A DNA stretch of 64,000 nt, taken from positions 62,001 through 126,000 of the forward strand of contig JAJOHG010000029.1 of NCBI GenBank assembly GCA_021029095.1, in the 5' to 3' direction. This DNA comes from Phellopilus nigrolimitatus (taxonomy: Eukaryota; Basidiomycota; Agaricomycetes; Hymenochaetales; Hymenochaetaceae). The notes under the pieces were generated by a model. That model was given only the letters and a program-made list of their open reading frames with translations, did no database searches and was not told where the DNA came from. Made by a program: the position numbers and the translations under genes. This document shows positions 1 through 52,695 of this stretch, piece by piece (within the stretch, counting starts at the first letter, position 1; each line of letters begins with the position of its first letter).

Positions 1-481
1 GCATGATGAGAAACGCTCCACGAGACTGATTAAACTGCCATTGGCCCTTGAGATACGCATTTGTAACACCAGCGACGTTGCTGCAAATCCAATAAATTTC
101 AATAAAGGTCGAAACGACATTGGATACTCACACGCCGATGTCAGCTCCGAGTTCGCATTGTTTTGCACTCGATGAACTTATTATATATTTGTCGAGAACC
201 GGTTCGGATACCAGCTGGAATTGTGCCGTGAGATCGACGATAGATTGGTCACTGCTAGTATAGATATTGCCCTCCTTGACAAACTGGCCAGACGTGGTTT
301 CGATTTCTCCATAGTCCCCTGCCTGCAACCCATGTCCATGTGAGAGAATGCCATAAAACATAGGTCGGATTGAGCTGACCGTAATCTGAATCGACGGATT
401 CCAATTTGCCCACCAGGACGAGGCCCGTCTAATTAAGTCTATAAACTTGCGAGAGGCCTCTTTTTTGAACCAAAAGTTCAT
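1..481 (-). CDS. Gasdermin-like candidate, paralog 1 (partial, runs off the left edge)
   Basis: This is the 5' part of a gene whose paralog is complete at 8514-9612. Exon 1 is 481-380 (34 codons from the ATG at 481), exon 2 is 322-132, and exon 3 starts at 80 and leaves the window. Exon lengths (102 and 191 nt), splice phases and intron positions match the paralog exactly. The protein begins with a Lys/Arg-rich helix containing KKEASRKFIDLIRR, then a Trp-rich strand. Next comes a Gly-Asp-Tyr-Gly turn leading to EGNIY, and then alternating polar and hydrophobic residues of the kind seen in membrane beta-hairpins. No stop or frameshift is visible in the part present. Family assignment is inference, as for the complete copy. 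It could instead be an unnamed fungal family. Confidence 0.55.
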
Positions 482-532
482 ACTGCATGTGTTGAGGGGA
501 TACGGAGAGGAACCTGTCGACGCTCGGATGAG

Positions 533-538
533 TATATA
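533..538 (-). promoter_or_regulatory. TATA box of paralog 1
   Basis: A TATATA motif read on the minus strand lies 52 bp upstream of the ATG at 481. The same motif is kept at the same relative place in front of the second paralog (9656-9661). Confidence 0.5.
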
Positions 539-1424
539 AATGACTTGAAGTAGTGTTCATTTTGATCACCTCCTATTGCTATCCGTTCTTATCTGACGCC
601 GAATCGACAAATATCCCTCTACATAGCTAAGCGATGATGAGAAGAGGCGCTCATATACTGAAGTTTGCTTCCTTAGAAGCTCGGGTAGGACACCGCACCG
701 TATCGCTTACGAATACGGCCGTATAAATCGAACCCGAGTACGAGCACGAACCATATACAACGTGCTGTACAGGTGTTTGGAAGCCACATACGGTACAGCG
801 CGAATGTCTTTCGTTCGTAGACGCCGTTACAGTACATACGCACATCACATTGACACACCATGGCAATGCACATGCGGAAAGTCCCAAGAGCAGTGTGCTG
901 AAAAGCTCCGTATCGCATCGTTTACTGTCTCCTGTGCTCTCATCAAGCGTAAATAAAGGATGAAAACCTCTTCTATCGATACGAATGCCATTGCCTCCAG
1001 GAGCCTCCATCGGGGGAGAGCAGCAGCGCGCGGACGTAGCGTGAGGACGAGGACACCGTCGAGAAGAGACGTGCAAATGCGGTACACGCGTCGGCGGAGG
1101 GAGCATGCATGCTCGTACCGCTGAACCTCGGTGCACTGCGCGCAGACGGACTGCAGTGAGGCGGCGAGGTCTACGTAAGAACTGCTCGGTATGCATTCAG
1201 CGGGTGAAAAAAATAGGAGAAGATATGCTTTTACCGCGCAGGGCGTGCCTCGCGTCGAGTACGGCTTTCAAAGCATCGTGAGTATCGGAAATAGAAAAAC
1301 TGTGTTGCTCAGCCGATCGTCTACGTACGTCCTTGGGACTACGTCTGGCGCAGCACGAAATCACCATGGAGAAAGAAATAACCAATGCGAAAGATAAGAA
1401 ACAAATATAACTAAGAGCTCACCT

Positions 1425-1610
1425 CCGGATGCTCTCATGAATTTTGATATCAAGTCCTCGTACACCTGATTATCGACAACGATGCTCGATACCCCACGAA
1501 CGTAGATATTCGTTCCCAGCCAAGAGATTGACGTTCTTGCCTATGACGACCCGATAATAGCATTAGTGCACATATCGCATGGCCTGTGAGTGGACAGGCT
1601 GTCGCATCTT
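1425..1610 (-). pseudogene. Cytosine deaminase remnant 1 (C-terminal half)
   Basis: On the minus strand, three out-of-frame pieces match the C-terminal half of the yeast FCY1-type cytosine deaminase family. They are the zinc-binding PCDMCT motif near 1580, a piece around GKNVN, and a tail reading SSIVVDNQ. Between the first two pieces, the stretch that follows the zinc motif is deleted and the frame changes. A 2-nt loss then changes it again just before the IVVD strand. The upstream half with the catalytic HGE motif is absent. A donor-like GTGAGCTC follows the tail. The gene cannot make an active enzyme. The paralog at 10830-11290 carries the same two lesions. Confidence 0.7.
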
Positions 1611-1650
1611 ACCTGATGATAGTGTACTCGCGTATTAAATTTTGTTAGCG

Positions 1651-2219
1651 CGGCAACCAGTGCACAAGAATCTCATGGTCAAACGGTCGGCAAGGAAAAC
1701 GGTCTTCCAGTGCGACGATTTGGACGGGATGGTCAGCGTCGAGTAGTACTTTCAACGAAGTAAGCACAACGGGATGTGTGAATAACTGGATCTTACATAA
1801 ATACGCGTGGCAGTGTTCGATACAGAATTCAGTATTCGCCTCCAACATGCGGATGACTGTCATCAATATGGGAAGCAAAGCCAACGATACATTAGGTCCC
1901 TGCCGAGCTCTGCGAGGTCGAGCGAGGCCAGCCTTTCGCGGGCATGCTCTCTGGGAGGGGGACTGCGGAGATGACGAAGCACTCGACCAACCCTCCGTAC
2001 ATGGCATCGATGCTAAGGCGATCACAGAGCAAGGAATCGAAGTACTGGTCTGCGTTAGGGCGCGCCGCCCATAAAGGGCTTCGGCATCGAAGCTCTGGAA
2101 ATGGCAACGTACACGACAATTCCACCAAGGAAACAAAGTACTGGGTCTGTGCCAGGGCGCGCCGTTCATACAGTAACAATCAGGATGCCACAATTACACT
2201 GTGCTATTCGCCTCCGTTT
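1651..2219. other. Unassigned interval
   Basis: A 182-codon reading frame on the minus strand (2193-1645) ends in a protein-like stretch, but I recognise no domain and see no splice pattern. Two short similar segments (about 2037-2075 and 2137-2175) suggest a local duplication. No gene is called. Confidence 0.3.
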
Positions 2220-2753
2220 CAGCATCCAGCGTCTCGCCTTTCGGAGTGCGAAGCTTGCGGAAATCAAAGTCAAGACCATATAGATACGAATACCAAGGGA
2301 GCGCTGCTTTCACGCTTTGACCCTTTCCCCCCTTTCATGTTACGTGGTCTTTGCCGCCTGAGGTCTATCTCAAACTCGATATAAGAACGACATATGAAAG
2401 CACAAGACCCAGAAGGTGAGCGATATCTGGAATCGTCGAGAGCATCATCGAACTCGGCAATGACCACTTTTCTGACACTCATAGCCCACGGACGCACTTA
2501 CAGCCTCGCGTAGCATTTTTCCTCGGGCTATCGTAGCAAAACAGACAGAGGTAGGATCTACCTTAACCCGACAATAGATTGCTCTAATCCTTCTTGTGAC
2601 ATGCTGTACAGAGCGCGCAAATTTTCAGTATAGGCAACTATATCCTTCAAACCCGGCGTGAGTAATATCTCCAGATACCGAGTACCGTGATCGATCAACG
2701 TTCGTGTTCATCCTCGCAGTTGCCGTCAAAGGATTCTCAAGTAACTCGTCCGG
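2220..2753 (+). repeat. Duplicated 5' region of the TPR genes, copy 1
   Basis: This sequence aligns by eye with 41050-41578. Shared blocks include the polypyrimidine stretch near 2590, the segment around 2620-2680 and the acceptor-like tcctcgcag at about 2713. Both copies therefore kept the promoter and leader of the TPR gene, which may contain unrecognised 5' exons and introns. Confidence 0.65.
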
Positions 2754-5700
2754 ATGGATATCATTGCCGGCGGTCGTAATATGCAAGATCATCTTCCGCC
2801 TGAAGACCCTTCTCGTTCCGGGTTGGATTTCCTTGCAAAGGCTCTGTTCACTCGTTTTAAGCAGGCCGGTCGTATGGATGATCTCAAGGTGTCTATTTCA
2901 CTCTATCGCGGCTCGCTAGAACTGCGTCCTCCTGGACACCCTCATCGTTACATCTCACTTTTCTACCTTGCAAATGCCATGTGAACTCAGTTTGAGCAGA
3001 CCAGTCGGATAGAGGATCTCGAGGAGACCAATGCACTCTGTCGCGATGCGCTTGATCTGCTTCCTCCTGGATGCCCTCTTCGCGTCGCATTTCTTCGATT
3101 GCTTGCAATAGTCGTGAGCACACGGTTTATGCGGACCGGTCGGATAGACGGTCTCGAGGAGCCCATTGTCTTCCATCGCGACGCGCTAGATCTGTGTCCT
3201 CCTGGAAACCCTGATCGTTCCTCATCGCTTGACAACCTTGCAGCGGCCGTTTGGATTCGGTTTGAGCAAACCGGTCGGATGGAGGATCTCGAGGAGTCCA
3301 TTGTCCTCCTTCGGGACGCGCTGGGACTTCGTCCTCCTGGACACCCTGACCGCTCCTCATCGTTAAACAACCTCGGGGGTGCCGTGCAGGCTCGGTTCGA
3401 GCAGGCCGGTCGGATGGAGGATCTCGAGGAGTCCATTGTCCTCTATCGCGACGCGCTAGAACTGTGTCCCCTTGGACACCCTCTTCGCATCGCATTTCTT
3501 GGAATGCTTACATATGCCGTTTGGACTCGGTTCAAGCAGACCAATCGGATGGAGGATCTCGAGGAGTCCATTGCCCTCCATCGCGACGCGCTGGAACTGC
3601 ATCCTCCTGGACACCCTGACCGCTCCGGACTTCTTAACAACCTTGCAGCTGCCGTGAGCACTCGTTTCAAGCAGACCGGTCGGATGGAGGATCTCGAGGA
3701 GGCCATTGTCCTCCATCGCGACGCGCTGGGACTTCATCCTCCTGGTCACTCTGATCGCTCCTGCTCACTGAACAATCTTGCGAGTGCGGTGGGGACTCGG
3801 TTCAAGCAGGCCGGTCGGATGGAGGATCTCGAGGAGTCCATTGTCCTCCTTCGGGTCGCGCTGGGACTGTATCCTCCTGGACACCCTGACCGCTCCTCGT
3901 CATTAAACAACCTCGCAGTTGCCATGCAGACTCGGTTCAAGCAGGCTGGTCGGATAGAGGATCTGGAGGAGTCCATTGTCCTCAATCGCGACGCGCTAGA
4001 CCTACATCCCCCTGGACACCCTCATCGCTCCATCTCACTTAGCAACCTCGCAAGAGCCGTGAAGACTCGGTTCGACCAGAGCGGTCGGATGGAGGATCTC
4101 GAGGAGTCCATCATCCTCCATCGCAACGCGCTTGCGCTGTGTCCTCCTGGGCACCCTGACCGCTCCGTATCTCTGAGCATTCTTGGAGGAGCCATGTGGA
4201 CTCGGTTTGAGAAAACCGGTCGAGTGGACGATCTCGAGGAGTCGCTCCGTATTCATGAAGAAGGCGCTGATCATGTCTTCTCCAGTACGCTAACGCGGCT
4301 CGAACTAGCAGTGCAATGGGCAGCTTTCGCGCGATCGCAGAGTCATACTTCTACCTTGAAAGCTTACCGTCTTGCTCTGTCACTCCTCGAAAGCTCCCTC
4401 GTTATAAGTCCCACGGTGCAGATGCAGCATCAACTTCTTAGCGGTAGAAATGGCTATCCAACTCTCGCTTCGGATGCGGCTTCATATGCTATAGAGATCG
4501 GTGATGTGGCTCAGGCTGTAGAGATGCTCGAGCAAGGAAGGGGCCTTATCTGGTCGCAGTTGCGCGGTTTCCGAACGCCAATTGAACGGCTTAGAGAAGT
4601 CAATAAAGGCTTGGCAGACAGGTTCCAAGGTGCCAGCCGTGAACTGGAATCGCTTGTCACTTCATCCGAGTCGAAGCCAATTACTTTGGTCGCGCAGGAT
4701 AGCGCGACAGGTGCCTCGCAGAAACTCGTGGATGGAATGTATTCTCGAAAGCGGCGTCTTGCATCCCGATTGGAGGAAATCCTTTCAGAGATTCGCGCGA
4801 CATCAGGATTTGAAGACTTCCTACGAGCCCGACGATTTGACGTTCTTCGAGAGGCTGCTGTCGAGGGTCCCGTCATCATCGTCAGCCACAGCAACTATCG
4901 TTCCGACGCTCTTATTGTCCTTCATGATCGCCCACCTGTCAGCATCGAACTGGATTCAAATTTCTCCGATAATTGCATTCAGCTCTTTAGAGATCTTAAG
5001 TTCGCACTTCGTAAGGTTCAGACGGAGCCGAATGGATGTGATGCGGATATCAGAGATGTGTTGGAGTCCCTGTGGAACTGGGTGGTTTCGCGGGTGGTCG
5101 AGAAGCTTGACGAGTTCGGAATCCAGAAACAGAGTCGTATTTGGTGGTGCCCGACATCTTTCTTATCTGCTCTACCTTTCCATACGGCAGGCCCGATTCG
5201 CGTTGTGGATGGCATAAGACAGTATCTCTCAGATGATTACATCTCGTCGTACACCCCGACGCTCACAGCCTTGATAAATGCTAGGGAGTCCAAGCCTGGT
5301 ATTAGGAGACACGACATTGGACGACCACAACTCTTCGTTGTTGCTCTGCCTGAGAGTATCCCCCTAGTCGAAAAAGAGTATCGTGTCATACAGGAGGACA
5401 GAGATTTTGTCAAATGTCTCGTTCGTGAGCAAGCTACTCGCGAAGCGGTTATTGATAAATTCCGCGACCATCACTGGGTTCATTTTGCTTGCCACGGCCA
5501 TTTGAATCACGAAGAACCCTTCCTCCACGCTTTTCAGCTTTTCGACAAAGACCGTCTCACTTTACTCGACATCATTCAATCCAATCTACCGAACGCTGAA
5601 TTCGCATTTTTATCCGCCTGTCACAGTGCGGGACAGGTTATTGACGGGGCATACGGGGAAGTGCTTCATCTTGCTGCGGCCATGCAGTTTTGCGGCTTTC

Positions 5701-5912
5701 GAAGTGTAATCGGTACAATGTGGGCGATGGCTGACGACGATGGGCCTTTCCTCGCCAAGGAATTTTACAAGCGTATGTTCTCGGAGGAGGACTCACCCGA
5801 GTTGGGATTCAGGCGGTCTGCGAGGGCTCTTCGTGAAACGATCCAGCGCTTGCGAAAGAGGCGGGGCGTCACGGTTGAGAGATGGGTCAATTTGATCCAC
5901 ATTGGAGCATGA
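2754..5912 (+). CDS. TPR-CHAT protein, candidate caspase-related protease, with an in-frame stop
   Basis: The frame 2754-5912 encodes eleven 45-residue TPR-like repeats, each carrying a version of GRMEDLEES...LxPPGHPDR. A helical linker follows, then a C-terminal CHAT domain, the caspase-like peptidase fold found with TPRs. The catalytic His lies in HFACHGH (about 5485-5505) and the Cys in FLSACHSAG (about 5600-5630). The ending WVNLIHIGA is usual for fungal CHAT proteins. One TGA (2982-2984) interrupts the frame at a position where sister repeats carry TGG. The first ATG after it is at 3129, so either the N-terminus is shorter or the allele is damaged. No intron is visible in the CHAT half. 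It lies between two gasdermin-like genes. Fungal gasdermin genes are known to cluster with subtilisin or caspase-related protease genes, so cleavage of that partner is a possible role. Confidence 0.8.
2866..4250 (+). repeat. 135-bp tandem repeat encoding the TPR array
   Basis: The conserved core CCGGTCGGATGGAGGATC or a close variant recurs at 2866, 3001, 3136, 3271, 3406, 3541, 3676, 3811, 3946, 4081 and about 4216. The spacing is exactly 135 bp, giving eleven 45-codon units. Such even spacing at the DNA level suggests recent unit turnover by unequal exchange. Confidence 0.9.
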
Positions 5913-8513
5913 TGAACAAGATAGCAGTTGAGTTTCCGCCCTTTTTCAAATACGGATATTTCTGACGAGTTTTCCATACAGCTGCATGTAGTTGTCTTCT
6001 TTCGATCGATTTTCAACAAGTGCTCTGGTTCTCTGTTTTTTGTTTTTCCTTTTTTCCTTTTTTTCCTTTCAATACGCATTGTACGCATCTGCAGACCGGA
6101 TTACATTGAGATTAGCTCAGTTACTATTATATTCATTGCTCTTGTACCTGATAATTAAAACATTGTTTACCGCCTAGTGCTTTGAATTTCACCGTTGTCG
6201 TTTGCAACGATCGGTCGCTAGAGAGCGTCGTCGGCTTGCTTCGTGTACGACTTAAGGAAGCGAAATACGGGCACGAAGATCCGATTAGAAAGTAGTACTG
6301 CAGATGAACGATACTAAGTAAAAATACAGAAGCAATGTAATAGCTAGAACACTCACATCTTTCTCTATCCTGGTCGTGACCGTCTGAGGTGATCATTTAA
6401 ACAAAAGAAGTATTTGAGCGAAAGGTGGTTTGTGCCGAGCGCCTGCTATCCTCTGTGCAAGGCTTGCCTACTGGCACGTCTCTTGACCGCGAAGACGAGA
6501 AAACAAACGAAGGAGAAAGGGAGAAAGACAGTGAATCAGAGTCCAAGTATACAAGGTTTTCTCTCGTTTTTCTTCGCCGACCCCTTGCGTAATGCACCGA
6601 AGTCGAGCGGCACGATCACGTATCCGCCGACGCGCATTTGCGCATTTCTCTCGACGGCGACGCATGCGCCTGCGGCATATCCTAATTACCTGGTTGTCGT
6701 CTCTCCCAACAGCCCGCATTTCCAACGCAAACAAAGGGAAGATGCTCTCAGGCTCCATCCTCTGGAACTAGAATGCGCACCCTGCACCGCCGCCACCGTC
6801 CACGTCCTTGCGCTACCGAGCCGCAGGTGCCTTCTCGATGTTCTAGCCCAGCTCCGGACACGCGCACGGGCATGGCTCTGGGCACCTTAGGCAGGGCAGC
6901 TTTTAAGGCATGTTTTTCTACGCGGTCCCGGTCCCGCTGCCGCCCTCCGTCGCGAGGTTCTCGATGTCTGCCACGAGGATCGTTCCCGCGAAGCACAGCC
7001 ACAAGAGCCGGAGGAGACACTCAACGACGAGTACGAATGGGAGTTTGAGGAGAAGAGATGCAGAGTCGGCGGGTGGGAGATGGAGGTTGACTCGTTAAGT
7101 TCGCTTTTCTTTTATTTGTGAAGTCTTCAATACTTATACTGACTAGCGCTTTGTACTCCCAGCCGCCGTTCTCCCCGCCTGAACATGTACATGCACATGC
7201 TGCCAACCCATATCCACGAATCCCACCTTCTTTCCGCGCACTCTTCCGCGCTTTCCGCCGCTTCGGTCCCTCGCGTCATTTAGGACGTACGTCCCGCACC
7301 CAGCTTCCTGGACCATGATACTGCGCCGCACCCGCACCCTGGCAGTCGGTCAGCGTATGTTCCGGCGATAGACCTCTGCGAGCGTAAAACCTTTGGTACA
7401 AGCGGGCTCGTATCTGTTTCTGCACCACCCGGTGCGGATGGAGTGAAGTACGGCAGCAGGTTCGATGCGAAATAAGAGGATAACACACGCACACGCATGA
7501 TATATGACGACGCAGGTCGGAATTATATCAGCGTAGACGCACGGGAGCTTGTAAGAGACACGAAGGAATGCGAGCGCCGTGGGTGTCCCGACGCGTTAAC
7601 ACCACCGAGAACAAAACATATACTGACGCAACATGCATTACAGACAGCCCGCGACCGCGCCCCAAACTGCAGCGCTCCCTGGCGGCGGCTTCCCGCGAGG
7701 TTGATGGCTGAGTACGTAACTACAATTCATGCTTGGTGCAAGTATTTTCGCACGATACAACCCTCACGTCTAATCTACATTCGTCTCTTTTTTTTCCACT
7801 TACCGTAGTACTTTCCCTTTGTCTTTCCTCCCGCTGAATCTATGACATTTGCCAATGTTTACATGTGTTATTTCTTGAAGCTGTAGCTGCAAACCGAACG
7901 CAAGCTACTCATACGACAAGGGCCAGTACGGCGGGTGTCGGTCGACATTACCATACATAAACCACAACAGTGCTCCGCCTTGAACCGTGAGACGTCGATG
8001 TCAGAACATACGTCGGCCCACAATACGGGCGGCGCAGCATGCGCGGTTCGTACAGGTCATACGCTAAGCGTAGTTGTGAGCGCGGAAAAAATGTGGGAAC
8101 CGTAGATATAGTGTATGGCTAGCAGGGAGCGCGACCGCTGTGATTACATAACCCCGAAAGGAGAGATTATACACTCGTAGCGGGAGTCATCAGCGAAAGC
8201 ACAGAAGACGGAGAGAATGAGTCCTGTGCTGTACATATACTGCCCATATAGCAACTAAAGGGCTTTTGTACATATTAGCAAACCCGTTCCTACGCTTACG
8301 AGTATTGATAACACCCTTCTGCATGTCAAAAGTTCCTCTTCGGATAGTGGGCCTCTCATCAGGCGTCATGGGGTACTCTGCAAGTGAAGTGATTGGAAGA
8401 TATATCTTCTAGTTCATGTACACAAGGTTAAATTCGCTTAAAAGCAGTTTTCGGCATACGCATCCAGCTTCGAGTTTGGAAAGAAACCAATCGTCAGACA
8501 AGCTTTATCGCTT
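5913..8513. other. Gene-poor interval
   Basis: No conserved coding sequence is recognised in these 2.6 kb. The first 250 bp is T-rich 3' flank of the TPR-CHAT gene. The segment 6600-6790 is an inverted copy of part of 10095-10330. The rest has only short frames without family features. Confidence 0.4.
6600..6790 (-). repeat. Inverted copy of the 10095-10330 segment
   Basis: The reverse complement of this interval matches the region upstream of gasdermin-like paralog 2. Landmarks shared are a Gly/Cys-coding stretch around TATGCCGCAGGCGCAT and the block GAGATGCTCTCAG. Part of the same segment (about 10060-10250) is missing from duplicate copy 1. This suggests a small mobile or recombined fragment. 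Confidence 0.55.
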
Positions 8514-9612
8514 TTAATCAGAGTCCGAATCATCCTAAGTTCAAGCGCCATCAATAAATTATAATTCAATAGTGCTACGAGACTCACCATGTACTCGATA
8601 ACCTCTTCCTCTCCATCGTCATCCAGGAAGCCCCACGGAGCTTCCACGTTTGCCCAGCTGATCGTCGCAGTGTTATCCAGATGTGCTCGCGAACCAAGAA
8701 TAAATACTTACAAATCACCCCTGGGAGCATTTTCGTCAAAACTTTCGCGTCGTATTTTACGCTTTGTGATTTTCCTAATGGAATACAGAGGGACGAAAAC
8801 CGCCTCGTCGTTATATCCCTTCTGCAATAGGCCAGCAATGCCGTCGTCCACCCATTTTACACCTTTTCCTGCCCCTGGTGAGACCCCCGGAGCAACAATG
8901 CTAGGAACGTCCGCTGCTAAAGCCAGACTGACCGTTTCGTTGGCTGTAGTATCATCAGTGTCAGATCGGTGGATCCCAAACTCAGGATTAAATACTTGCT
9001 CTTGTTGGAAAGATACAGCGCATATGCGGGGCATTTATACACACGTGTTACGAGTGTCTTGTCTCTCAACAACCCGTCGGCAAGGGATTTATCGAGAAAC
9101 TCGTCCGGAACTCTTGTGATGCTAGGCATGTGCATGATGAGTAGAGCTCCACGAGAATGATTGAATTTCCATTGGCCCTTGAGACACGCGTTTGCGAAAC
9201 CAGTGACATTGCTGCAAATCCAATTAACTGCAAGTATCATGGAGCTGGCATTGAATACTCACAAATTGACGTCAGCTTCAAGATCGTGTTGCTTTGCCGT
9301 CGATGAATTTATGATATATTTGTCGAGAGCAACTTCGGATACCACCTGGAATTGCGCCGCGAGATCGGCGATAGATTTGTCGCTGCTGGTATAGATATTG
9401 CCCTCTTTGATAAACTGGCCAGACGTGGTGTCGATTTCACCATAGTCCCCTGCCTGCAACCCACGTCCATGTGAGAGAATGCCATAAAACCTAGATCGGG
9501 TGAAGCTGACCGTAATCTGAATCGACGGATCCCAGTTTGCCCACCAGGACGAGGATCGTCTGATCAAATCTATAAACTTGCGCGAGGCCTCTTTCTTGGA
9601 CCAGAAGAGCAT
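8514..9612 (-). CDS. Gasdermin-like candidate, paralog 2 (complete, 6 exons)
   Basis: Six exons (9612-9511, 9453-9263, 9211-8996, 8927-8712, 8657-8588, 8534-8514) sum to 816 nt, or 271 residues. All introns are 51-90 bp with GT...AG ends. The protein starts with a basic amphipathic helix and a Trp-rich strand. A GDYGEI turn and EGNIY follow, then a strand pair with alternating small and hydrophobic residues around ADVNFNVTGF. After that come a helix with LRDKTLVTRV and a strand ending YLSNKS. The last two exons add an acidic tail (GEEEVIEYMDDSDSD). The order of beta-hairpin, helix, then a V-T-x-V strand resembles gasdermin N-terminal domains, and fungal gasdermins such as HET-Q1 and RCD-1 have similar length. 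The neighbouring TPR-CHAT gene supports the idea. No homology search was possible, so the family is a hypothesis. The exon structure itself is well supported. Confidence 0.6.
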
Positions 9613-11060
9613 GCTGAGTGTGTTGATGGAAAGCAAGCGTTGTCGTTCGAATGAGTATATAAGTGATTGTTAAATAGTGTTCATTTGGATCACCTGCTAT
9701 TGCTATCGGTCTTATCAGACGCCGAATCAACAAATATGAATCGAACCCGTGTACGAGCACGAACCTTATACAACGCGTCATATAGGTATTTGGAAGCCAC
9801 ATCCGGTACAGCACGACTTTCATTCGGTCGTAGACGCCGTTACGGTACATACGTACATCACATTGGCACACCATGCGAAGTACACGAGAAACGTCCTAAG
9901 AGCAAGGTGCTAAGAAGGTCCGTATCGCATCGCTTCCTGATTCCTGTGCTGTCGTCAAGCGTGATTAAAAGACGAAGACGTCTTCTATCGATGCGAAAGC
10001 CATTGCCTCCAGGGGCCTTCATCGGGGAAAGCAGCAGAGCGCGGACGTAGAGTGAGGACGAGGACGGCTGCGCCGGCACGACGTATGCACCTTGGACTAG
10101 GAAAAATGCTAGTTCCAGAGAATGCGGCGCCAATGGCGTGCTACGGAAGGAACGCGAATAGGCTGAGAGCATCTCCCCTTCGTCCGCATTTCAAATGCGG
10201 GCTCTTGGGAAAAAGGCGACAGCTAGGTAATTGGGGTATGCCGCAGGCGCATATGACGCCGTGAAGAAGAGACGTGCAAATGCGGTACACACGTCGGCGG
10301 AAAGGAGGAAACATGCGTGCTCGTACCACTGGACCTCGGTGCACTGCGCGCAAACGGGTAAACGGACTGCAGTGAGGCGGCGAGGTCTGCGTAAGAATTG
10401 TTCGGCATTCGGCAAGTGAAGAAGAACCGGAGAAATCATGCTTTTGGCGCTCAGTTGTGCCTCGCGTCGAGCACGGCCTTCACGGCATCGAGAATACCAG
10501 AAATGTAAACTCAGTTGCTCTACTGAACGTCAACATCCTTGGGACTACGACTGGCGTCAGCACGAAATCACCATGGAGAAAGAAAGAACCAATGCGTACA
10601 ATATCACCAAAAGTACATCCTGATTGTATTATCGGAGGTACGTTGTTGAATAGTCAAGGCGGTCCTGGCGTGTCTGTCTTCGAATCCGAGGTTTGGTCAT
10701 TTCGAGTCCCTCGATGACACGCAAACCGTCCCTATTGACGCTTCTTCATGTACGATAATGATAACCGATTCCATGTCTTCGTTGCCAGAATCATCGTACC
10801 AAACATAGAAAACGAATATAACTAAGAGCTCACCTCCGAATGCTCTTGTGAACCTTGACATCAAGTCCTCGCACTCCTGATTATCGACAACGATACTCGA
10901 CACCCCGCGAACGTAGATATTCGTCCCCACCCAAGAAATTGACGTTCTCGCCTATGACGACCCGATGATAGCATCAGTGCACATATCGCACGGCCTGAGA
11001 GTGGGCAGGCTGTCTGCATCGTACCTGAGAGTAGCGTACCACGCGTATGAAAGTTTGTTA
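9132..11060. repeat. Segmental duplication, copy 2 (partner 1-1650)
   Basis: This is the direct-orientation partner of 1-1650. It carries the same order of gasdermin-like gene, spacer and cytosine deaminase remnant. It has about 190 bp extra at 10060-10250 and about 200 bp extra at 10595-10800. No gene is recognised in 9670-10820 apart from this homology. Confidence 0.8.
9656..9661 (-). promoter_or_regulatory. TATA box of paralog 2
   Basis: A TATATA motif on the minus strand lies 44 bp upstream of the ATG at 9612. It is conserved with the motif at 533-538 before paralog 1. Confidence 0.5.
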
Positions 11061-12195: not shown

Positions 12196-14206
12196 TCAGA
12201 AAAGGAGCGCAAGCGAATAGGCAGAGAGGATCGTCATAGTCACGAACATGAGAGCGTACTGCGGAATGAGGAACGCGGACAGCGTCTCTGCGCTTCCTGT
12301 ACCGGAGTATACCTGCGTGAGGAAGACCTGAAAAAAAAAACGATTAGCTCGAGCTTGCTCGGATTAATTATTACAAAATGCTTACTTGTGTCGTTGCAGT
12401 CGGAATGCAGGATATAAACCTGAAAGAGGCGTGTGGGTGGTCAGCGTCAGCAGTCGAAAAACGCCGGTGAGACACGCACATGCAGACGAAGCGCAGGACT
12501 TTCTGGTCCTCCCCAATTACTCCGCCGTGCACGAGCCCCTGCGTGATCAGGACGCCCAGTACGGGCATGATGATCATTTTCCCAATCGCGAGCCACGTGA
12601 TCGCGCCAATCGGCAAGTCTTTCCACTGGTCGCGCGGCACGTTCAGGCGCGCGAGCGCGGAGCCGAGGCAAGTCAGGCCGAGCGGCACGCTCGCCGCGCC
12701 GATGAAGTTCGCGGTGTCCAGGATGAACGCCAGCGGGGGCTGCCCGTCCGGCGCGTTCGGGATCGGCGAGTGCGGCACGGGCGTGAAGAGCGCCTTGAGC
12801 GGCGTGATCAGCGCGATGGGGAACGCGACGAAGATCGCGATCGCCTGCGGCGTGAGCAGCGACGCGAGCGCCGTGCGCGCGTGCGCGAGCATGCGGTGCT
12901 GCAGCGCCCGCGAGCGTGGCGGGACGGTCGTCGACGGCCCGACGCTCGTGGGGTGCGCGGGCCCCGGGGATTTGGGTGTCTCATCGCCGTCGAACCGCGT
13001 GACGGAGGCCACCGGCGAGGTGATGCATGAGGGGACGTGCTCGGTGTGCGCAGGCGAGCACACGCGCGAGGCGAAGGGCTCGGTGGGGACTGCGGTCGCT
13101 GCGTCGTCCGTGTGTGCGTAGAAGGAGACGTGTTTTGAAGGCCCCGGGCGCACATGGCGCTGGGAGAGGTGTGCGCACTTTTCTTGCGCATCCGTCGCTT
13201 CTCCAATTGTCGTCTCCGTGAACTCTGTTTTCTTCGGTTCGTTTTCGATATCCCGCTGGGAAGATTTTTCGTCGCTGGCTGAACGCTTGAGAGGGTTCGG
13301 CACTACGTGTCGAATGAGGGTGGCGCCCTTTGTCCAGTTCCGAAACGATTCCTTGGTTTTGGCGATCATAGACATCCGGAGCTCAGAATCGTCTACCTCT
13401 GGACCAACAAAATCCAATGCGATCAAGCGGTGACCGCCCATAGGAAAGAGGGAAACCTAGCAATGTTCCATTCAATGAATGGGAGAGGAGGAGGGAATAG
13501 TTTCTCAGCCGTATCAATCGTGCTCACAAAAAATACAAGAATGAAGGCAGCAACATAAGCAACAGACAATGTCTGGTCAGTAGATGGATTAAAGGGCGCA
13601 GCACCGGTGATGCTCATTATAACGGCCGTTGCTGAAGAAAAAGTCAGTTCTTCGGAGAAATAACCCATCTGCGGAAATGTTGCTTACGGACATCGCCGAC
13701 GTTACCCCATCCTCCTGCTACGAGAATACCGTAGCGGAAGCGATGGGGTACCCAGAAAAACTGTTTAATTATCCATGCCAAGAGTATACCTAGTAGCTCG
13801 TACGTGACACCCACGAGAACAAGGGGGCCTGAGTACACTCAATTAACAAAAAGCGTGACTCGACAAGTCAGAACACTAACCGAGAGCACTGATGTTTTCC
13901 GAAGTGAAAGCGGGAACAATTTTGGAGAACATTAGGGATGGGTATGTTATGTTCTGAACCTCGGGCATAAGCCGAAACGCAGCGCCATCCTGAAGGTCTG
14001 AACATACCAGCATGATTTGTCCGGCGCCTCTGGCTGCAACGAGTGGGAAGATGTCCGCCTTGGTAATTATGAAACCACCAGCTGTGCATATCACGCTGAA
14101 AGTAATCTCGATCGGACATATACATTTGCGCTGTAGAACATTCGTTGACTCACAGCCGCAGTAATGGGCGAATAGAAACCCAGATCAAAGCGCCCACAGA
14201 CAACAT
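12196..14206 (-). CDS. Auxin efflux carrier family transporter (PIN-like, ECM3 type)
   Basis: Seven exons (14206-14154, 14095-13881, 13828-13688, 13631-13528, 13456-12480, 12419-12386, 12327-12196) sum to 1656 nt, or 551 residues. The N-terminal half has conserved blocks of the fungal membrane transport protein family: GGFIITKADIFP, then GILVAGGWGNVGDVPTAV, then SITGAAPF. A long hydrophilic loop rich in Ser, Pro and His is encoded by the large fifth exon. The C-terminal bundle contains FIGAASVPLGLTCLGSALARL and ends with CIPTATTQVFLTQVYSGTG. The family spans membranes (plasma membrane or ER) and exports small organic compounds. The fungal substrate is not known. The reading frame is intact. 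Confidence 0.88.
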
Positions 14207-14742: not shown

Positions 14743-14878
14743 ACCCTCATGTCTTTCAACTCTCAATCACCACCACCTCGTAGACTAAAGCTATCTGGCT
14801 GCGCTTTTTTCTCGGTTTTCCTTCTGTCGCGTACTTCATGCTTTGATTCAGAATACTATACTAGCCGACGCGGCGAAT

Positions 14879-17800
14879 ATGGACCCCCACTCGCCACGGA
14901 ACGATCATGACTCGGAAGGCGATCACGGTTTTCATCTCTGCGGGCGCACGGACTATAACCTACCGGGGAGAGGAAATCGTCCGAAGCTAAGGGTACAGCT
15001 TTCTGAGCGTCACGATAGCTCGTCTACGGAAGAAAAACCAGAGGGATTCGACTCGGAATCTGACCTTTCGAATAAAGGCGCGGCAGGCGGCACTTCTACT
15101 ACACCCTCTAATAACAAACTTTCGAATCCGAAATATCTGCTTTCTCGTCCTAATGTTGCCTGGATAACTAACAACTTGGATATTGCTCATCTAAAACCGG
15201 TCATACGGACAGCGGTTGCGACTTGGATATGCATAGTGCTATTAATCATCCCTGCCACAGAGAAAGCGATGGGAACAGTGCGTGTGTTTCTAACTGTAAA
15301 CACCGCAAACTACGCTGACTGATAACATCCAGGCGAGCTATCTAATTCTCGTAGGTACGGAATTCGGTATCTCAATCAACGAGCCCGTCTGATGTTCTTA
15401 TATCCAGCCGCCGCTCTTTCTCCTCCTGCAGAACCTTTCATAGCCGTCTTTGAGAGCGAAATAGCGATCCTTCTCTTCGTCACTATTTCTTTCGCGTGAG
15501 TTAGTACTCACTGTCATCTTCATCAAAACGTCATAGATTCTTCTAGTTGGACCTGCTTAGGAATTTGTCTCGCGAATCTAGCTCGGAAGGAATTCAACAC
15601 CTCCGCATCAATGGAGGATATAATTTCTGGCCAGTATCTTGAAGCTGCGGTATGTCCCAGACTTTAAGTTTGATATAGCTTTTATAGAGTTTTGACACCC
15701 AACCCAGCCAACCATCATATGTTCTATTTTTCTTTTCGTAGGCACTGCGGTTTTTCAATACACGAAAGCACGAGTCGGTATGGGACCCTACACGATGGCT
15801 CTTGTTCTATCTTGTATTTTAATGAGTACGGTGCAATAAAACGACCAGTTAGCCTTTCTTACGTTTTATATTTAGATATGTCGTTGACCGTAGGCCAATT
15901 GTACCCATATCCATTCTATAAAGTGAGCTTCTCTTCAATTCTGCTTCACCGATCATTTAAACAGATTTGTTCAGGGCGGAGAAGCGGTTCTAATACCAAT
16001 AGCTGTGCATTCCGCCGTCTCTTTGGTGTGCTCGGTATTCGTTTTCCCAGAAACTGTCAACGCACAGTTCATCAAGCGCTTCCGCAATGTCTTCATACCT
16101 CTTTCCAAAGCTATGCGCACGCAGACCGCCCTCTTCACGACTCCAGCAATATCACGCGATTTCGATACAGGGTTGTTCAAGCAAATATCGGCAGCGGAGG
16201 CTGCGCTCGCCCCGCTCGCTGTTTCAAGTCGTCTCTTGAAGAAGGACCTCTCGTGGGGACGGTTCGGATCGAAGGACTTTTCGCGCCTGCACGAGTTCGC
16301 GCGGCGTATGGCGGTCCGTGCGAACGGAATGGCATTTTACTTCAAGATTATCGACCCCGTTGTGGACAAGCAGCCGGGTTTCGCGACGTCCTCGGCTGTG
16401 AACACTCCGCTATCGACGCCTGGACAATCACTTGCACCAACACGTACACCATCGCCGACACCGCCGCAAAGCGGAGCCAGTACCTCGTCTAATAATTCAA
16501 TTGTTTCGACCACACGGCCGCGCAATCGCCATCGCCACCACTCGCCCCATCACTCTATATACCAGCATTTTCACAATTCGCACCATCGCCAGTACCGTCA
16601 CAAATTTTCCGTTTTCGGGAACCCGGCCTCGCTCTTCCAGGAAGCGCTCAGCCGCTCCACCGGAAACGCAGTGGGCGTGTTTGAATCACAGCGATACCTC
16701 AATTTAGAATCGCGTCTTGCACACCCGGACGCCGACCAACTAAGACAGCATGTTATGGAGCTCCTCGGCGAAAGCACAAGCGAGCTTCGAGCATGCTGTG
16801 CGGACGCGCTGGACCACCTTGTGAGCTGGCTCGAGCGGATGAATCAGGACCGTTTCTGGAAGTTGTTCAGACGAGAGCGCTTGAAGACATGGGAAGAGAG
16901 TATACGCGATGACGAAGCTGTAAAAGACAGACTTCGGCGAGTTCTAGATGAGTTCCGAGAGAAGAAGAGGTTTGTTCGCCAAATATTTTATTTTATGACT
17001 ATGAAGTCAAGCTTACTTGTATACGCTACAGGCATCGTGTGCTAGACATGTATCGCAGTTATCTCGATCCCGATTATGTCGGTTCACTTTCTGGCGAAGA
17101 AGTACCATCGCACCGCTACCTCTTCCAAAGTTATTTATACCAGTATCATCTCATGTCCTTCTCTGAGCTCCTCTTCAGTCTGGTGAGCCACAAACTGCAA
17201 GATTTCTCCGTATTCTCATTCTCGCCTTATTTTTATTTTTTATTTTTATTGCTGTGAAGCTCGAGGAAATCACTCGTCTGGGAAAGACACGGTCTCGCTC
17301 GCGTCTATGGTTCCCGGTCCTTCCACTGAAGAAGATCTTGACTTGGAGTAAATGGGAGCCAACGGAAACTAATTTACAGCAGGACGAAGATGAGGATCCC
17401 AGTGCGCATACACCATTGATCGTGTCTCAGGCCGGGACAGACCTCTGCTCTCTTTGCAGACATTATTCAAGGCATCGATCCCGAGACGCAGGAGTCACTT
17501 GGACAGACAGAAAGACGCGATCCCGATGCGCTACCTCCTGGGAACGCATTCGAGGCTATCGGGAATGTGTTGTATCATTCTATCAGCGCACTGGGACGCG
17601 GGAACGCTATCTTCGGCTTTAAGGCTGGAGTACTTTCTAGTGAGCTGCACTCTATTATTCATGCCCGAAAAGCCCATCAAAGAATTTACTCTGAATGACT
17701 TGTCATCGCTAGTATTGATGAGTCTGCCGAACTTTTTGCCAAGTTCTACGCACTTTGCATATGGTATGCCCCCTATTCGACCGCTTTTACTGCGTTCACT

Positions 17801-19435
17801 GAATCAGATATGTTATGAAGTTAATAGATCCATCTGGGCACTGTACGGACAATAGTAATTTACAGAAAACCCTAATACTGAAACCCTTGACTTGACAGCG
17901 TTATCGGCCAGCTAACCCTCAGCCGCTTTCGCGGCGACACGAGTTACAACTGGTCCTCCAGAGTGATAGCCACGTTTCTCGGCGGTTTGGTGGGCTCTGC
18001 AATGTGGTGCGTGCATTTTGAAGACAATTCTCCTTCCCATGTTTCGCGATTTGAGCCTGATTTTTATACAGGTATATGTCAACGGGGTTGGGTGATGGAA
18101 ACGCCTTCGGCTTAGCAGCCGTTTGCGCCGTCTGCTTCCCGGTTATCTTCTTCATAAGGCTGTATTATCCTGCGCCGATGTTGACGCTTATAATTTTCCT
18201 TTTGACAATTGTACTTGTCTTAGGCTATTCATGGCAAGACGAGCACTTTCCGACACTGTCGAACAAAGGTAAGTGATGATTTCTATTGTCCACTCCGCAG
18301 CGTTCACCAGGCACTGCATTTTAGGGAAGGGAATTCATGTCGCCTGGGTACGTCGAAAACGATATTGCATTACTCACTATAATCCAATCAGTCCTTCCGT
18401 TTCTACCACTTAGGTTCGCTTTGTCTTGGTCTCTATCGGAGTCACGGTTGCTTTGTGAGTACATCAGTACTCCGTTTACCCAAATTACTCAAATATATCT
18501 CAGCATCTTTTCCTTTCTACCGCCTTCCACGACACTCCGCCGGTACCTGCGCACGACATACTCCACGACCTCGCAGCAGCTCGGCCAGGCGTACTGCGAC
18601 GTCGTCTCGCACGCGACGCTGCAGGACGGCTCGCACTCTGGGGTCATCGTCAAGGACCTCATCGCGATCCGGATGAAGCTCAGGCGCTCGCTCGTGCTCA
18701 TGACGAACGTCACGTACGAGTACTCACTTCGTGGAAAGTGGCCGAAGGAACGGTATAATACTGTCTACGAGATCCAGATGTAAGTCTTGCCAAGGACACA
18801 AGTAGAATTTAAAAAAAGTGGCGAACTGTGTTGACTATTGGCTGTTTGGTTCACAGGGAAATTGCATACTTACTTTCCCATTTGCGTTCGATCACGGAGC
18901 ACCTCGAATTGTCGTGGTCACAGGTTTTTCTGAAACGCACGCGGTTCCTAGAGCCGGACTTCCAAGGTGACGTGCTAGCAGTCATCAGTATGCTTTCCTT
19001 TCCAGTTCTTATTCTTTCGATGCTTATTAACGCCATTTCAGGTATGATCTCGACGGCGCTACGTACGGGCGCACCGCTGCCGCAGGTCACGCCGTGCCCG
19101 CTGCTAGACCGCTTCGTCGCGCATAGCCACGGACTGAACGTCCTGCGCAAGGAGGAAGATGGCGATTATAGCCTCCCGCGCACGCTCACCATCGAAACGC
19201 TCGAGGACGAGCAATATCTGTACGCCCTTCTCTCATTCCACGGTGCTTCTCTCCTTATTGATTCTGCGCTTGCCTTTGAAAAAAAATCAGAAATTTCAGC
19301 GTCGGCGTCTCGACGGCGTTTGGGATCGTGACGCGGCTGGACAGGCTGATGATGGCGACGAAGGAGCTCGTCGGGGAGCAGTTCCACATACACGGCCTGC
19401 CGGTGCACGTCGCGAAAGCGAAGAGCGCGCGCTGA
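14879..19435 (+). CDS. ArAE_2 / DUF2421 membrane protein, copy A
   Basis: This is a large multi-exon gene of the fungal family with an ArAE_2_N six-helix N-terminal domain and a C-terminal ArAE_2 (DUF2421, Bre4-like) domain. The start ATG at 14879 opens a hydrophilic leader beginning MDPHSP. The first membrane block is LKPVIRTAVATWICIVLLII. Further exons give VHSAVSLVCSVFVFPETVNAQF, a cytosolic region with LLKKDLSWGRFG, a His-rich linker, then FESQRYLNLESR. The second half has SRFRGDTSYNW, STGLGDGNAFGL and PPSTTLRRYLRTTYSTTSQQLGQAYCD, and ends with IVTRLDRLMMATKELVGEQF. The stop is at 19435. Relatives include the yeast brefeldin A sensitivity protein Bre4 and aromatic acid exporters; the substrate is unknown. 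Copies B and C lie in inverted orientation 6 kb away and resemble each other more than this one. Confidence 0.85.
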
Positions 19436-19643
19436 GTTGTGATAGAAGATATACTTATTGTAGAATTTAGCTTATACAATTTAGATTATGTAGAATGAAA
19501 CCGAGGATGCACATTTTCGCCCGGGCGGACATGACGCATATGTAACTTCCTCCAAATTTGCGAGAGCTGCTGGCACTCGAACTATTTTACACCATGTATG
19601 CATCCCTTTCCGATGCTTTTCACCCGCTTCAGCTCCCCCTTTC

Positions 19644-25501: not shown

Positions 25502-25855
25502 AAAGCCACCATCTCGAGATCTTTTGTAGTCTGCCGTGGTATCTTGCGGGATTTGCTAGAATATATAGGTGCGCCTATCTGGTCTTTGCGGAATGCCCGG
25601 CGTGCATGCTGATACCTCTTTTTCTCCCCTTGGTAGAGGAAGAATACAGTACTTATACGGATGCATTGATTTCTGACTGCTTACGAGTGTGGAGGAACAA
25701 AACGAGGGAAAAGGCCCGCGTACACTGATACGTACCCCGCGGTCACATAATTTCTGTCTTGCAGCTTGTACCATATACAGACCTTCAGAGTTCTTATTCA
25801 TCCCTTTTTTCTCCTTCTGTTTTCGCACAGAAGACCGGCCAGCCTCTACCGCAGG
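25502..25855. other. Intergenic with duplicated 3' flank
   Basis: This spacer lies between two convergent genes. About 25580-25800 aligns with 30750-30930, downstream of ArAE_2 copies B and C respectively. The duplication that made copies B and C therefore included 3' flank. No gene seen. Confidence 0.55.
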
Positions 25856-28800
25856 TCAGGGCACGCTCTTCGCCTTCGCGACGTGCACCGGCAGGCCGTG
25901 TATATGAAACTGCTCCCCGACGAGCTCCTTCGTCGCCATCATCAGCCTGTCCAGCCGCGTCACGATCCCAAACGCCGTCGACACGCCGACGCTGAAGTAT
26001 CTGAAAATTCGCACAGCAGGCGAAAAATCCGTGATGAGGGTGGCACAATGAGATGCGAAGAGATCGTACAGATATTGCTCGTCCTCGAGCGTCTCGATGG
26101 TGAGCGTCCGCGGAAGGCCGTAATCGCCCTCTTCCTCCTTACGCAGGACGTTCAGCCCATTGCTATGTGCGACGAAGCGGTCTAGCAGCGGGCACGGCGT
26201 GACCTGGGGCAGCGGCGTGCCCGTACGTAGCGCCGTCGATATCATGCCTATTAAGGCGTCAATAAGCATCGAAAGAATAAGAACTGGAAAAGGAAAGCAC
26301 ACTGATGACTGCTAGCACGTCGCCTTGGAAGTCCGGCTCTAGGAACCGCGTGCGCTTCAGAAAGGCCTGCGCCCACGACAATTCGAGGTGTTCCGTGACC
26401 GAGCGCAAATGGGAAAGCAGGTACGCGATTTCCCTATGAGAGGAAAATCCCAAATAACCAATAGTCAATACTAGTCACCGCTAGTTTGCTACAGGAGTAC
26501 TTACATCTGGATCTCATAGACGGTATTATACCGCTCCTTCGGCCACTTCCCGCGCAGCGAGTACTCGTACGTGACGTTAGTCATCAGTGCGAGCGAGCGC
26601 CTGAGCTTCAAACGGATCGCGATGAGGTCCTTGACGATAATCCCAGAGTACGGGCCGTCCTGCAGCGTCGCGTACGAGACGACGTCGCAGTATGCCTGGC
26701 CGAGCTGCTGCGAGGTCGTGGCGTATGTCGTGCGCAGGTACCGGCGGAGCGTCGTTGAAGGCGGCAAGTAAGAGAAGATGCTAAGACATATCTGAGCAAT
26801 CTTGGGGGTTGAGCATAGCATTGGTGTGCTCACAAAGCGACGGTGACTCCGATGGTGACCAGGACAAAGCGTACCTAAGGGATAGCAAAAGGAAGACTGA
26901 GTACTTCATGGTAATGCAATACCGTGCTCGACCGTACCCAAGCCACATGAATGCCCTTCCCTAAAATGCAATGCCTTGTGAACGCTGCTAAGTGAACAAC
27001 CGAATGCATCACTCACCCTGATTCGACAGCGTCGGAAAGTGCTCGTCTTGCCACGAGTAACCTACAACAAGCCCGACCGTCACCAGAAAAATCGTGAGCG
27101 TCATTGCCGGCGCAGGATAGTTTAGCCTTATAAAGAAAAGGAAAGGAAAACCGACAGCGCAGACAGCCGCCAAGCCGAAGGCGTTCCCATCGCCCAACCC
27201 TGTTGATGTATACCTATGTAAAAAATCAGGGGAAGAAGAAACGAAAGCCCTCCCAAAATGCACGAACCACATCACCATGCCCACCAGGCCGCCAAAAAAC
27301 GTAGACATCACTCGAGAGAACCAGCCAAAAGTTGTATCGCCGCGGAAGCGGCTCAGGGTAAGCTGACCGATAACACTGACAAACCGAAGGTTTCAGTAGG
27401 AGTCTCTTCAGCTCATGATTATAGTCCGTACAGTGCCCAAATCGATCTATTAACTTTAGGGTATATCTGTGTTATTAAACAGTGCTTTCAGCAGAACGTA
27501 AAAGACGAGCGTACCATATGCAAAGTGCGTAGAACTTGGTAAGAAGTTCGGCAGACTCAACAATACTGTGTATTTTTCGATGAGCTCCTTCGATATGAAT
27601 GATGAGATGTAACTGACCAGAAAGTATTCCAGCCTTGAAACCAAAAATAGCGTTCCCGCGCCCCAGAGCGCCGACAGCATGATACAACACATTCCCGATA
27701 GCTTCAGATATGTTCCCGGGAGGTAACGCATCAGGATCTCGCCTTTCCGCCTGTCCAAGCGAGTCCTGAGTCTCGGGATCGATGCCCTGAATAATGTCTG
27801 CAAAGAGAATAGAAGTCAATCTTTACTTCAAGGACAAACACTAGAGTATACGCACCGGGATCCTCGTCTTCGTTCTGCTGCAAATTAGTCTCCGTCGGCT
27901 CCCATTTACTCCAAGTCAGGATCTTCTTTAGCGGGAGGACTGGGAACCATAGACGTGATCGAGCGCGTGTCTTTTCCAAACGGGTGATTTCCTCGAGCTT
28001 TAGACAGAAAATAAAACGGAGTAAGGATCAGAACAGTAGCACGCCCTCGCAATCTCTGATTTACCAAATTGTAGAGGTGCTCAGAAAAGAACGTGAGGTG
28101 ATACTGGTACAAATAACTTTGGAAGAGATAACGGTGCGGTGGTACGTCCTCGGCAGGAGGTGAACCGACATGATCAGGATCGAGATAACTGCGATACATA
28201 TCCAGCACTCGGTGCCTGTAGCGTGTAAGCATAGGTAAGCTTCAAAGCTTTTAGAGTGAGATGTGTAATTAACAAACCTCTTTTTCTCACGAAACTCATC
28301 CAGCACCCGCCGAAGTTTGTCTTTTACAGCTTCATCGTCACGTATGCTCTCCTTCCATGTTTTCAAGCGCTCTCTCCTGAACAGCTTCCAGAAGCGGTCC
28401 TGGTTCATGCGCTCGAGCCAACCCGCAAGATGGTCCAGTGTGTCTGCGCAACATGCGAGAAGTTCATCCGTGCTTTCGCCAAGGAGCTCCATGATGTGCT
28501 CAGTTAGTCGACCAGCGTCCGGATGCGCCAGACGCGACTCTAGATTGAGGTAGCGCTGGGATTCAAACACGCCCACCGCGTTCCCGGTGGAGCGGCTAAT
28601 TGCCTCCTGGAAAAGCGATGTCGGGTGTCCAAACATGGATAGCATGTGACGGTGATGCGGGCTGTGGCTCTGGCCGTGAAGATGGTGGTATATAGAGTGA
28701 TGGAGCGAATGCTGACGATGGCGATTTCGCGGCCGCGTAGTCGACACGATAGAAACGTTGGATGGGGTGTTGACTTCGCTATGTGACGGTGTGGGCGATG

Positions 28801-41049: not shown

Positions 41050-41578
41050 GGCAACTCTCCTCGCCTTTCGAATGGTTCGAAGTTTGCGGAAGCTGAAGTC
41101 AACACGATACAAACCCGAGGAGCGCTGCTTTCACGTCCACCCTCGACCCTTTCCTCCTGTCATGTCAAGTGGTCTCCGCCATTCAGGAACTATCTAAACT
41201 TCGACATAGTAAGAACAACGTAGGAAAGTACAAGATCCCAGGAAGTGAGCGATATCTAGGATTGTCGAGAGCACCATTGAACTGCGCTGAATACCTCCTC
41301 TGATGCTCATAGCCTACGGATGCACTTGCAGCCTCGCGTAACACTTTGCTTAAGACTATCGTAGCAAAACATACAGGTAGGATCTACCTTACTCGCCGAT
41401 GAATTGCACTAATCCTTCTTGTGTCTTGCTGTACAGAGCGTGCAAATTTTCAGTATAGGCAACTATATCCTTCAAACCCGGCGTGAGTATATTTCTAGGA
41501 CACTGAGTGCCATGATCGGCCAACGTTCGTGTTCATCCTCGCAGTTTCCGTGTAAGGATTCTCAAGTAACCCGTACGG
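41050..41578 (+). repeat. Duplicated 5' region of the TPR genes, copy 2
   Basis: This is the partner of 2220-2753. It includes the same leader blocks and the acceptor-like tcctcgcag at about 41540. The interval 40583-41049 shows no gene. Confidence 0.65.
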
Positions 41579-43130
41579 ATGGAGAATCGCGAGAAGTCGG
41601 TTGCCAAATTCCGTGACGCACTGGACCTGTGTCCTCCTGGACATCCTGATCGCTCCTCATCACTGAACAACCTAGGAAATGCCGTGCGGACTCGTTTTGG
41701 GCATACAGGCCGGATGGAGGATCTCGAGGAGTCCATTGCCCTCCATCGCGAAGCGCTAGAACTGCATCCTCCTGGACACCATAACCGCTCCACATTACTG
41801 GGCAACCTTGCAAATGTCGTGCGGACTCGTCATGAGCAGACTGGTCGGATGGAAGAGTCGATTGCCCTCAACCGCGACGCGCTTGAGCTGCATCCTCCTG
41901 GCCACCCCGATCGCTCCTCATCAATGAACAACCTTGCAGCGATCGTGCAGGCTCGGTTTGAGCAAACTGGTCGGATGGAGGATCTCGAAGAGTCCGTTTC
42001 GCTCCTTCGCGAAGCGCTAGAACTGCATCCTCCTGAACACCCTTACCGCTCCTCATCAATACACAACTTTGCAGCAGCCTTGAGCACTCGTTTTGAGCAG
42101 ACAGGTCGGATCGAGGATCTCGAGGAGTCCATTGCCCTCCATCGTGATGCAGTAGAGCTGTGTCCTCCTGGGAATCCCGATTGCTCCGCAGCTCTTACCT
42201 GCCTTGCAAATGGTGTTCTCACTCGTTTCAAGCAGGTCGTATGGATGATCTCGAGGAGTCCATTACCCTCCACCGCGACGCGCTAGAATTGCGTCCTCCT
42301 GGACACCCTGATCGCTCCGCATCGCTGAACAACCTTGCAGTAGCCGTGAGCACTCAGTTTGAGCAGACCGGTCGGACGGAAGATCTCGAAGAGTCCATTG
42401 TCCTCCATCGTGACGCGCTAGAGCTGCGTCCTTTTGGACACCTTAGTCGCTCGACATCTCTAAATAATCTCGCAGGAGCCGTGAGTACTCGTTTTGAGCA
42501 CATAGGTCAGTTGGAGGATCTTGAGGAGTCCATTGCCCTTTATCGTAACGCGCTAGATCTGAGTCCCTATGGGCACCTTAGTCACTCCACAATTCTAAAC
42601 GATTATGCAGTAGCCGTGGGCACTCGTTTTGAGCAGACAGGTGAGATGGAGGATCTCGAGCTGTCCATTTCGCTCTTTCGCAACGCGCTAGATCTGCGTC
42701 CCTCTGGGCATCCTACTCGCCACACATGTCTGTACAATCTTGGGAATGTCCTACAAACTCGGTTTGAGCTGACAGACCGGACTGAAGATCTCGAGCAGGC
42801 CATTATCCTCCAACGCGAGGCGGCAGATCTGTGTCCTCTTGGGCACCCTGATCGCTCCGCATTTTTGGACAGTCTTGCACGAGCCGTGCGCACTCGTTTT
42901 GAGCAGATAGGCCTGATGGAAGATCTCGAGGAGTCCAACGCCCTCTATCGTGCTGCACAGGATTTGCTTCCTCCTGGGGACCCCTGATCGTTCTTCTTGT
43001 AACAGCCGTGCAGACTCGGTTTGAACAGACAGGTCGGATGGAGGACCTCGTACAGTTCGTACAGTTCATTTCCTTCCGCTATATCTGCGTCCTCCTGGGC
43101 ACCCTGGTCGCTCTCGATATCGAAACAACT
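41579..43130 (+). pseudogene. TPR array copy without CHAT domain, broken
   Basis: The 45-residue repeats here belong to the same family as those at 2866-4250, for example GRMEDLEESIALHREALELHPPGH. The first frame runs 41579-42286. A 4-nt loss at about 42236 (compared with sister repeats) shifts the frame. The second frame continues to 42987, where one extra base in a G/C run shifts it again and a TGA follows. One repeat also lacks three residues (GRMEESIAL). Beyond 42987 the repeat decays through direct duplication of a short GTACAGTTC segment, and no CHAT coding follows. The N-terminal repeat part alone could still be made, but the protease domain is gone. Confidence 0.8.
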
Positions 43131-52562: not shown

Positions 52563-52695
52563 CAAAAACGGGATCCGAGAAGGGCGGCGGCACAGTGTAC
52601 AAGGTGCGTATTCGTATGAAATTTCTCCTGTGCCCCGTCGCGTACCGTCGCGCGCCGCTTGCCGCTTGCCGTTTCCCAGCAGCGCGCGCGCGGGC

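Follow-up and report, generated by a model that had tools for sequence, protein, structure and literature searches.

A probable gasdermin/TPR-CHAT cell-death module in the basidiomycete Phellopilus nigrolimitatus

Somatic incompatibility in basidiomycetes is described, in an excerpt of one published account, as poorly understood, with the current models all based on ascomycetes (PMC8229728), and a locus of the wood-decay fungus Phellopilus nigrolimitatus raises the question of whether this basidiomycete carries a form of the fungal gasdermin/protease pair. The locus lies in a stretch of 64,000 nucleotides (the window; contig C212, positions 62001-126000) from an assembly of 635 contigs totaling 56.4 Mb. 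The original prediction placed two gasdermin-like paralogs and a TPR-CHAT protease gene in the first 9,612 nucleotides of the window, and all three genes are present there. We consider it likely that together they constitute a fungal gasdermin/TPR-CHAT cell-death module, a divergent basidiomycete form of the known pair. The gasdermin fold and the gene linkage are well supported by computation, which also supports the CHAT fold with its His/Cys pair, a conserved tail on the gasdermin-like protein, and a single conserved arginine in the linker that precedes the tail. The genes and their parts are as follows.

1..481, minus strand: gasdermin-like copy 1, 5' part, start codon at 481-479 (spliced homolog P0003 of 275 amino acids, profile matches, and fold model of P0003)
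2754..5912, plus strand: TPR-CHAT protease gene, with an in-frame stop at 2982-2984 and an open frame that starts at 2985 and ends in a stop codon at 5910-5912 (Pfam TPR_10, TPR_12, and CHAT; AlphaFold2 model; NCBI model P0125)
3081..4295, plus strand: nine TPR units of 45 codons each (mean mutual identity 61% in protein and 72% in DNA)
5055..5906, plus strand: CHAT domain, with His837 at 5493-5495 and Cys879 at 5619-5621 (Pfam CHAT and residue alignment)
8514..9612, minus strand: gasdermin-like copy 2, six exons, 275 amino acids (gene model, homologs, and fold)
8514..8746, minus strand: exon segments that encode the conserved acidic tail at the C terminus, with about 41 residues following Arg234 (conservation of Trp254 and Gly261)
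8747..8752, minus strand: codons of Arg233-Arg234 in the variable linker, a candidate cleavage site (Arg conservation)

The six exons of copy 2 (9612-9511, 9453-9263, 9211-9000, 8943-8712, 8657-8588, and 8534-8514 on the minus strand) include a GC-AG junction at intron 3, and the product is close in size to the 271 or so residues first proposed. It differs from NCBI protein P0001 at two positions over the 270 amino acids of P0001, one of them being the last residue, where the NCBI model has another end. Copy 1 crosses the edge of the window and runs left to about C212:61452; it is 79% identical to copy 2 over the exon 1-2 reading frame. A common exon structure had been proposed for the paralogs, and the splice junctions of P0003, the counterpart of copy 1 on contig C617, indeed fall at the same residue positions as those of copy 2. 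We also note, from frames compared by eye, a similar short protein-coding-like stretch beside each gasdermin copy (at about 1440-1560 and 10850-10940, minus strand).

The predicted fold proves to be that of a gasdermin, in line with the original prediction: structural alignment of the P0003 model identifies a gasdermin N-domain fold, with 8 to 11% identity to the bacterial gasdermins (8sl0, 9a84, and 7n50-7n52). Sequence searches find little. None of the 124 homologous proteins in the aligned family set matches the Pfam Gasdermin profile at E 1, PF04598 has no match in the whole genome, PDB chain sequences give no match to the family at E 10, and a viral fold library gives none at E 0.001. The Pfam, NCBIfam, and PADLOC profile libraries yielded nothing useful for the family, a single member of the 124 matching PDC-M11B of PADLOC (E 0.0003). 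We take a profile match as a sufficient but not a defining sign of a gasdermin, because structure links distant gasdermins. The named homologs of the family are all fungal.

The C-terminal tail is modeled as ordered, since the predicted local distance difference test score (pLDDT) is 81 to 91 over residues 241-270; the block at 231-240 has a mean of 68. Of the ungapped rows of the family alignment, 114 of 120 have Arg233 and 67 of 78 (46 gaps) have Arg234, and linker positions 226-245 are otherwise variable, no further residue exceeding 53%. Trp254 (117/117) and Gly261 (116/116) are invariant where present. By an alignment-free count, 103 of the 105 proteins (among the 124) that have both flanking motifs carry a linker arginine at some position, and an RR pair occurs in only 62 of the 105; Arg233 is therefore a firmer candidate than the pair. 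A cut after Arg234 would free 41 residues, and HET-Q1 is reported in a review to lose 40 residues after F238 (PMC10989679).

The frame at 2985-5912 scores 110.7 bits against Pfam CHAT (cut-off 24) and also matches TPR_10, and the catalytic His and Cys motifs noted at the outset are visible as CHG and AC motifs, with His837 and Cys879 aligning with the corresponding residues of solved TPR-CHAT proteins. Alignment of the single sequence to those proteins is weak (E 0.0019 and above), and a profile of 61 proteins gives E 1.4e-6. The whole AlphaFold2 model has a pLDDT of 85.0, and Foldseek ranks 1-18 are Craspase TPR-CHAT and separase structures; in the model, helix A of each TPR unit spans unit positions 1-19 and helix B positions 22-37. 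CHAT homologs were taken as the best 120 of 2947 matches, and of the 61 sequences made up of the window protein and 60 of these 120, 59 retain the His and 58 the Cys. Both residues are kept at 12 of 15 loci read as DNA; the Cys is lost at C45, and both are lost at C617:76.8k and C334. The dead-CHAT genes of C45 and C617:76.8k adjoin gasdermin-like genes. The C334 gene (C334:31713-34454; L002, L039) is a TPR-CHAT gene with both catalytic residues changed, and four protein queries found no gasdermin-like locus on that contig.

The same four queries against the genome contigs recovered 11 gasdermin-like loci, and PF12770 recovered 28 CHAT loci on 8 contigs, the latter count being a lower bound. 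Ten of the 11 gasdermin-like loci are 0.4 to 3.9 kb from a TPR-CHAT gene, and thus within 10 kb of a protease gene; the pair occurs in more than one orientation, and gene order differs among loci. This linkage is more than chance, but it does not amount to 10 independent cases, because duplication relates the loci to one another and some of them probably represent alleles, as may hold for C604/C625 and C617/C212. The more distant gasdermin-like gene at C312:198153-199051 (L042), which is 49% identical to a Coniferiporia protein over one piece, has no CHAT in the 18.5 kb read; frames near it match DUF6699 and a shikimate-kinase-like domain. The gasdermin-like loci at C604, C625, and C617:53.8k at first appeared to be pseudogenes with stops inside, a reading we rejected since the query had read through intron 1 and since NCBI has a full-length product, P0002, for C625.

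Linkage in other species, the further check proposed for this locus, turned up in a single additional genus, Coniferiporia. In C. weirii the gasdermin-like protein M0805_001922 and the CHAT protein M0805_001923 have consecutive locus tags, the contig of each being 30,256 bases, and M0805_001923 is the best non-Phellopilus CHAT match among the 120 (55% identity). This pair is an independent case. It is also the only one among the six gasdermin-like proteins of other species with ordered locus tags to adjoin a CHAT among the best 120 of 2947 matches; those of Sanghuangporus vaninii (three), S. sanghuang (one), and S. weigelae (one) have no adjacent CHAT within that set, the nearest Sanghuangporus spacing among the CHATs listed being 46 tags (ACEPAH_9434 and ACEPAH_9480). 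S. baumii stood outside this comparison, its listed CHATs having no tags.

A second copy of the locus lies on C617. Identity to C617 is 99 to 100% at window positions 1-1200 and 6401-10400, where gasdermin copy 2 lies in full, whereas the stretch at about 1601-6400, with the TPR-CHAT gene, is 75 to 91% identical; about 945 bases of TPR sequence are missing from C617, and identity farther to the right is 90 to 99%. Gasdermin copy 1 is a mosaic relative to C617, its first part being 100% identical and the part left of the window 90.5 to 95.5%. In the CHAT domain the C212/C617 pair has a dN (nonsynonymous divergence) of 0.083 and a dS (synonymous divergence) of 0.264, and the domain is under purifying selection. 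No comparable contrast is seen between C604 and C625, whose two main pieces are 95% and 97% identical and the sequence beyond them 89%. The C212/C617 pattern could have arisen from alleles, from a duplication, or from gene conversion between members of an array. RPB2-type genes occur at three places in the assembly, the number expected of a single haploid set; the assembly has therefore largely collapsed the haplotypes, and its small contigs may be haplotypes left separate or else duplicated segments. On the C617/C212 haplotype question, a DNA probe taken from window positions 51001-54000 matched repeats.

Variability across 67 TPR units is highest at positions 10, 13, 3, 45, 39, 32, and 37, although the per-position counts of nonsynonymous and synonymous change are descriptive, being uncorrected for site numbers and with positions 1, 5, 8, 16, 25, 36, 38, and 40 fixed by the pattern. 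Positions 3, 10, and 13 lie on helix A of the model with helical spacing. Repeats that closely resemble one another and yet vary have also been reported in fungal NLR sensors (PMC9815663).

From these observations we infer how the module could act. The TPR superhelix would sense a ligand and thereby switch on the CHAT cysteine protease. This protease would cleave the adjoining gasdermin-like proteins within their variable, basic linker, with Arg233 or Arg234 as the likeliest site. The cut would release the presumably inhibitory tail of about 41 residues, freeing the pore domain to assemble in a membrane and kill the cell compartment. By analogy with the known pairs, the module could plausibly function in cell death or self-recognition. 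A more specific proposal, which we regard as possible but doubtful, is that this locus governs somatic incompatibility or antiviral defense: different nuclear types would have divergent, ligand-specific TPR-CHAT sensors next to near-shared gasdermins, and the dead CHATs would serve as dampers or decoys. Each sensor would read its own ligand because the TPR units, so similar to one another, would evolve in concert, with most of their variation on one face of helix A.

The frame that opens with the ATG at 2754 hits the in-frame stop at 2982-2984, which the original prediction did not mention. In NCBI model P0125 splicing bypasses the stop, and several short TPR pieces are omitted too; because of the early stop, the TPR-CHAT copy of the window may be shortened or broken. 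Of the 28 CHAT loci, only 11 lie within 4 kb of a gasdermin-like locus, and the majority (17) lack such a neighbor. The C45 gasdermin-like copy has a frame change inside exon 1, next to the CHAT that lacks its Cys, and this pair looks to have decayed together. A further array in the window is a probable gene remnant in which the PF12770 search gave no CHAT match.

41570..42984, plus strand: TPR array in two overlapping frames, probable remnant of a TPR-CHAT gene (same TPR type)

The stop, the C45 pair, this remnant, and the unpaired CHAT loci, together with the confinement of all 28 CHAT matches to 8 contigs, mainly in arrays, would fit a linkage that reflects descent and not function, with tandem duplication of a gene-rich block followed by decay and many copies dying. 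We think this unlikely, as order and orientation vary among the loci, the CHAT domain is under purifying selection, and the pair recurs in another genus. Activation without cleavage is a different and quite improbable alternative, in which two divergent gasdermin variants (copies 1 and 2, or those of two nuclear types) would co-assemble a pore with the CHAT as passenger or regulator. RCD-1, reported to act when two antagonistic allelic variants meet (PMC10197012), provides a precedent, and two paralogs as divergent as copies 1 and 2 around one sensor, as well as catalytically dead CHATs beside gasdermins, are in keeping with it; yet the linker arginine and tail conserved in the 124 homologs would be unneeded without cleavage, and CHAT linkage is found in two genera. 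That the family is some other beta-sheet pore protein, of the MACPF or cholesterol-dependent cytolysin kind, is very hard to credit. The gasdermin/TPR-CHAT cell-death module remains the reading that we favor.

Other genes in the window include a membrane transporter (Mem_trans; 12374-13456), an AA9 lytic polysaccharide monooxygenase (38404-39099), and a protein kinase piece slightly under the Pfam cut-off (51845-52756). A block of about 4.7 kb is present in three copies (14763-19446, 25845-30536, and 31111-35830) and is repeated on C617 too, each block holding a frame with the ArAE_2_N domain of putative endoplasmic reticulum transporters.

The gasdermin-like family is spread over mushroom-forming fungi, where NCBI labels its members hypothetical proteins; linked as it is to a caspase-like sensor, it provides named candidate genes for regulated cell death in basidiomycetes. 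The single conserved linker arginine and the divergence of the protease between locus copies offer specific tests, and fold comparison evidently detects gasdermins that sequence profiles overlook. Among the papers retrieved by searches of open-access literature on fungal gasdermins with CHAT, basidiomycetes, Agaricomycetes, or somatic incompatibility, and on the species, none describes this family or locus in its title or abstract opening. Fungal gasdermins are reported to be more abundant in Ascomycota (PMC10197012), and some basidiomycete ones, perhaps including this family, may therefore be in published catalogues.

The pairing of gasdermin with protease is already known from ascomycetes and bacteria; the literature examined describes neither the family and its tail nor its location next to large TPR-CHAT arrays. 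About 80% of fungal gasdermin genes are reported to sit with protease genes, and 19% within 10 kb of CHAT genes (PMC10197012). The ascomycete pairs (HET-Q1/HET-Q2 and that of Podospora) are alike, as reported, in having a gasdermin fold, about 275 amino acids, a short C-terminal tail, and a neighboring protease, and one published pair shares a TPR-bearing CHAT as the protease, the Podospora gasdermin being reportedly activated by it (PMC12881547). In contrast to those pairs, the family described here has no Pfam gasdermin or PDB gasdermin sequence match, its TPR-CHAT arrays are large, a single CHAT is flanked by two gasdermin genes at the window locus, and some CHATs are dead; the candidate cleavage residue is Arg, whereas Phe238 is reported for HET-Q1. 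RCD-1 of Neurospora (8jyy, 8jyz) acts, as reported, through the meeting of two antagonistic allelic variants. Bacterial gasdermins are 8 to 11% identical in structural alignment, and the named homologs here are fungal. On the protease side, Craspase TPR-CHAT (Csx29) and separase are alike in having TPR followed by CHAT with His and Cys aligned, but the P. nigrolimitatus locus has no CRISPR partner, its 45-residue TPR units are highly alike, and its presumed substrate is a gasdermin rather than Csx30 or SCC1.

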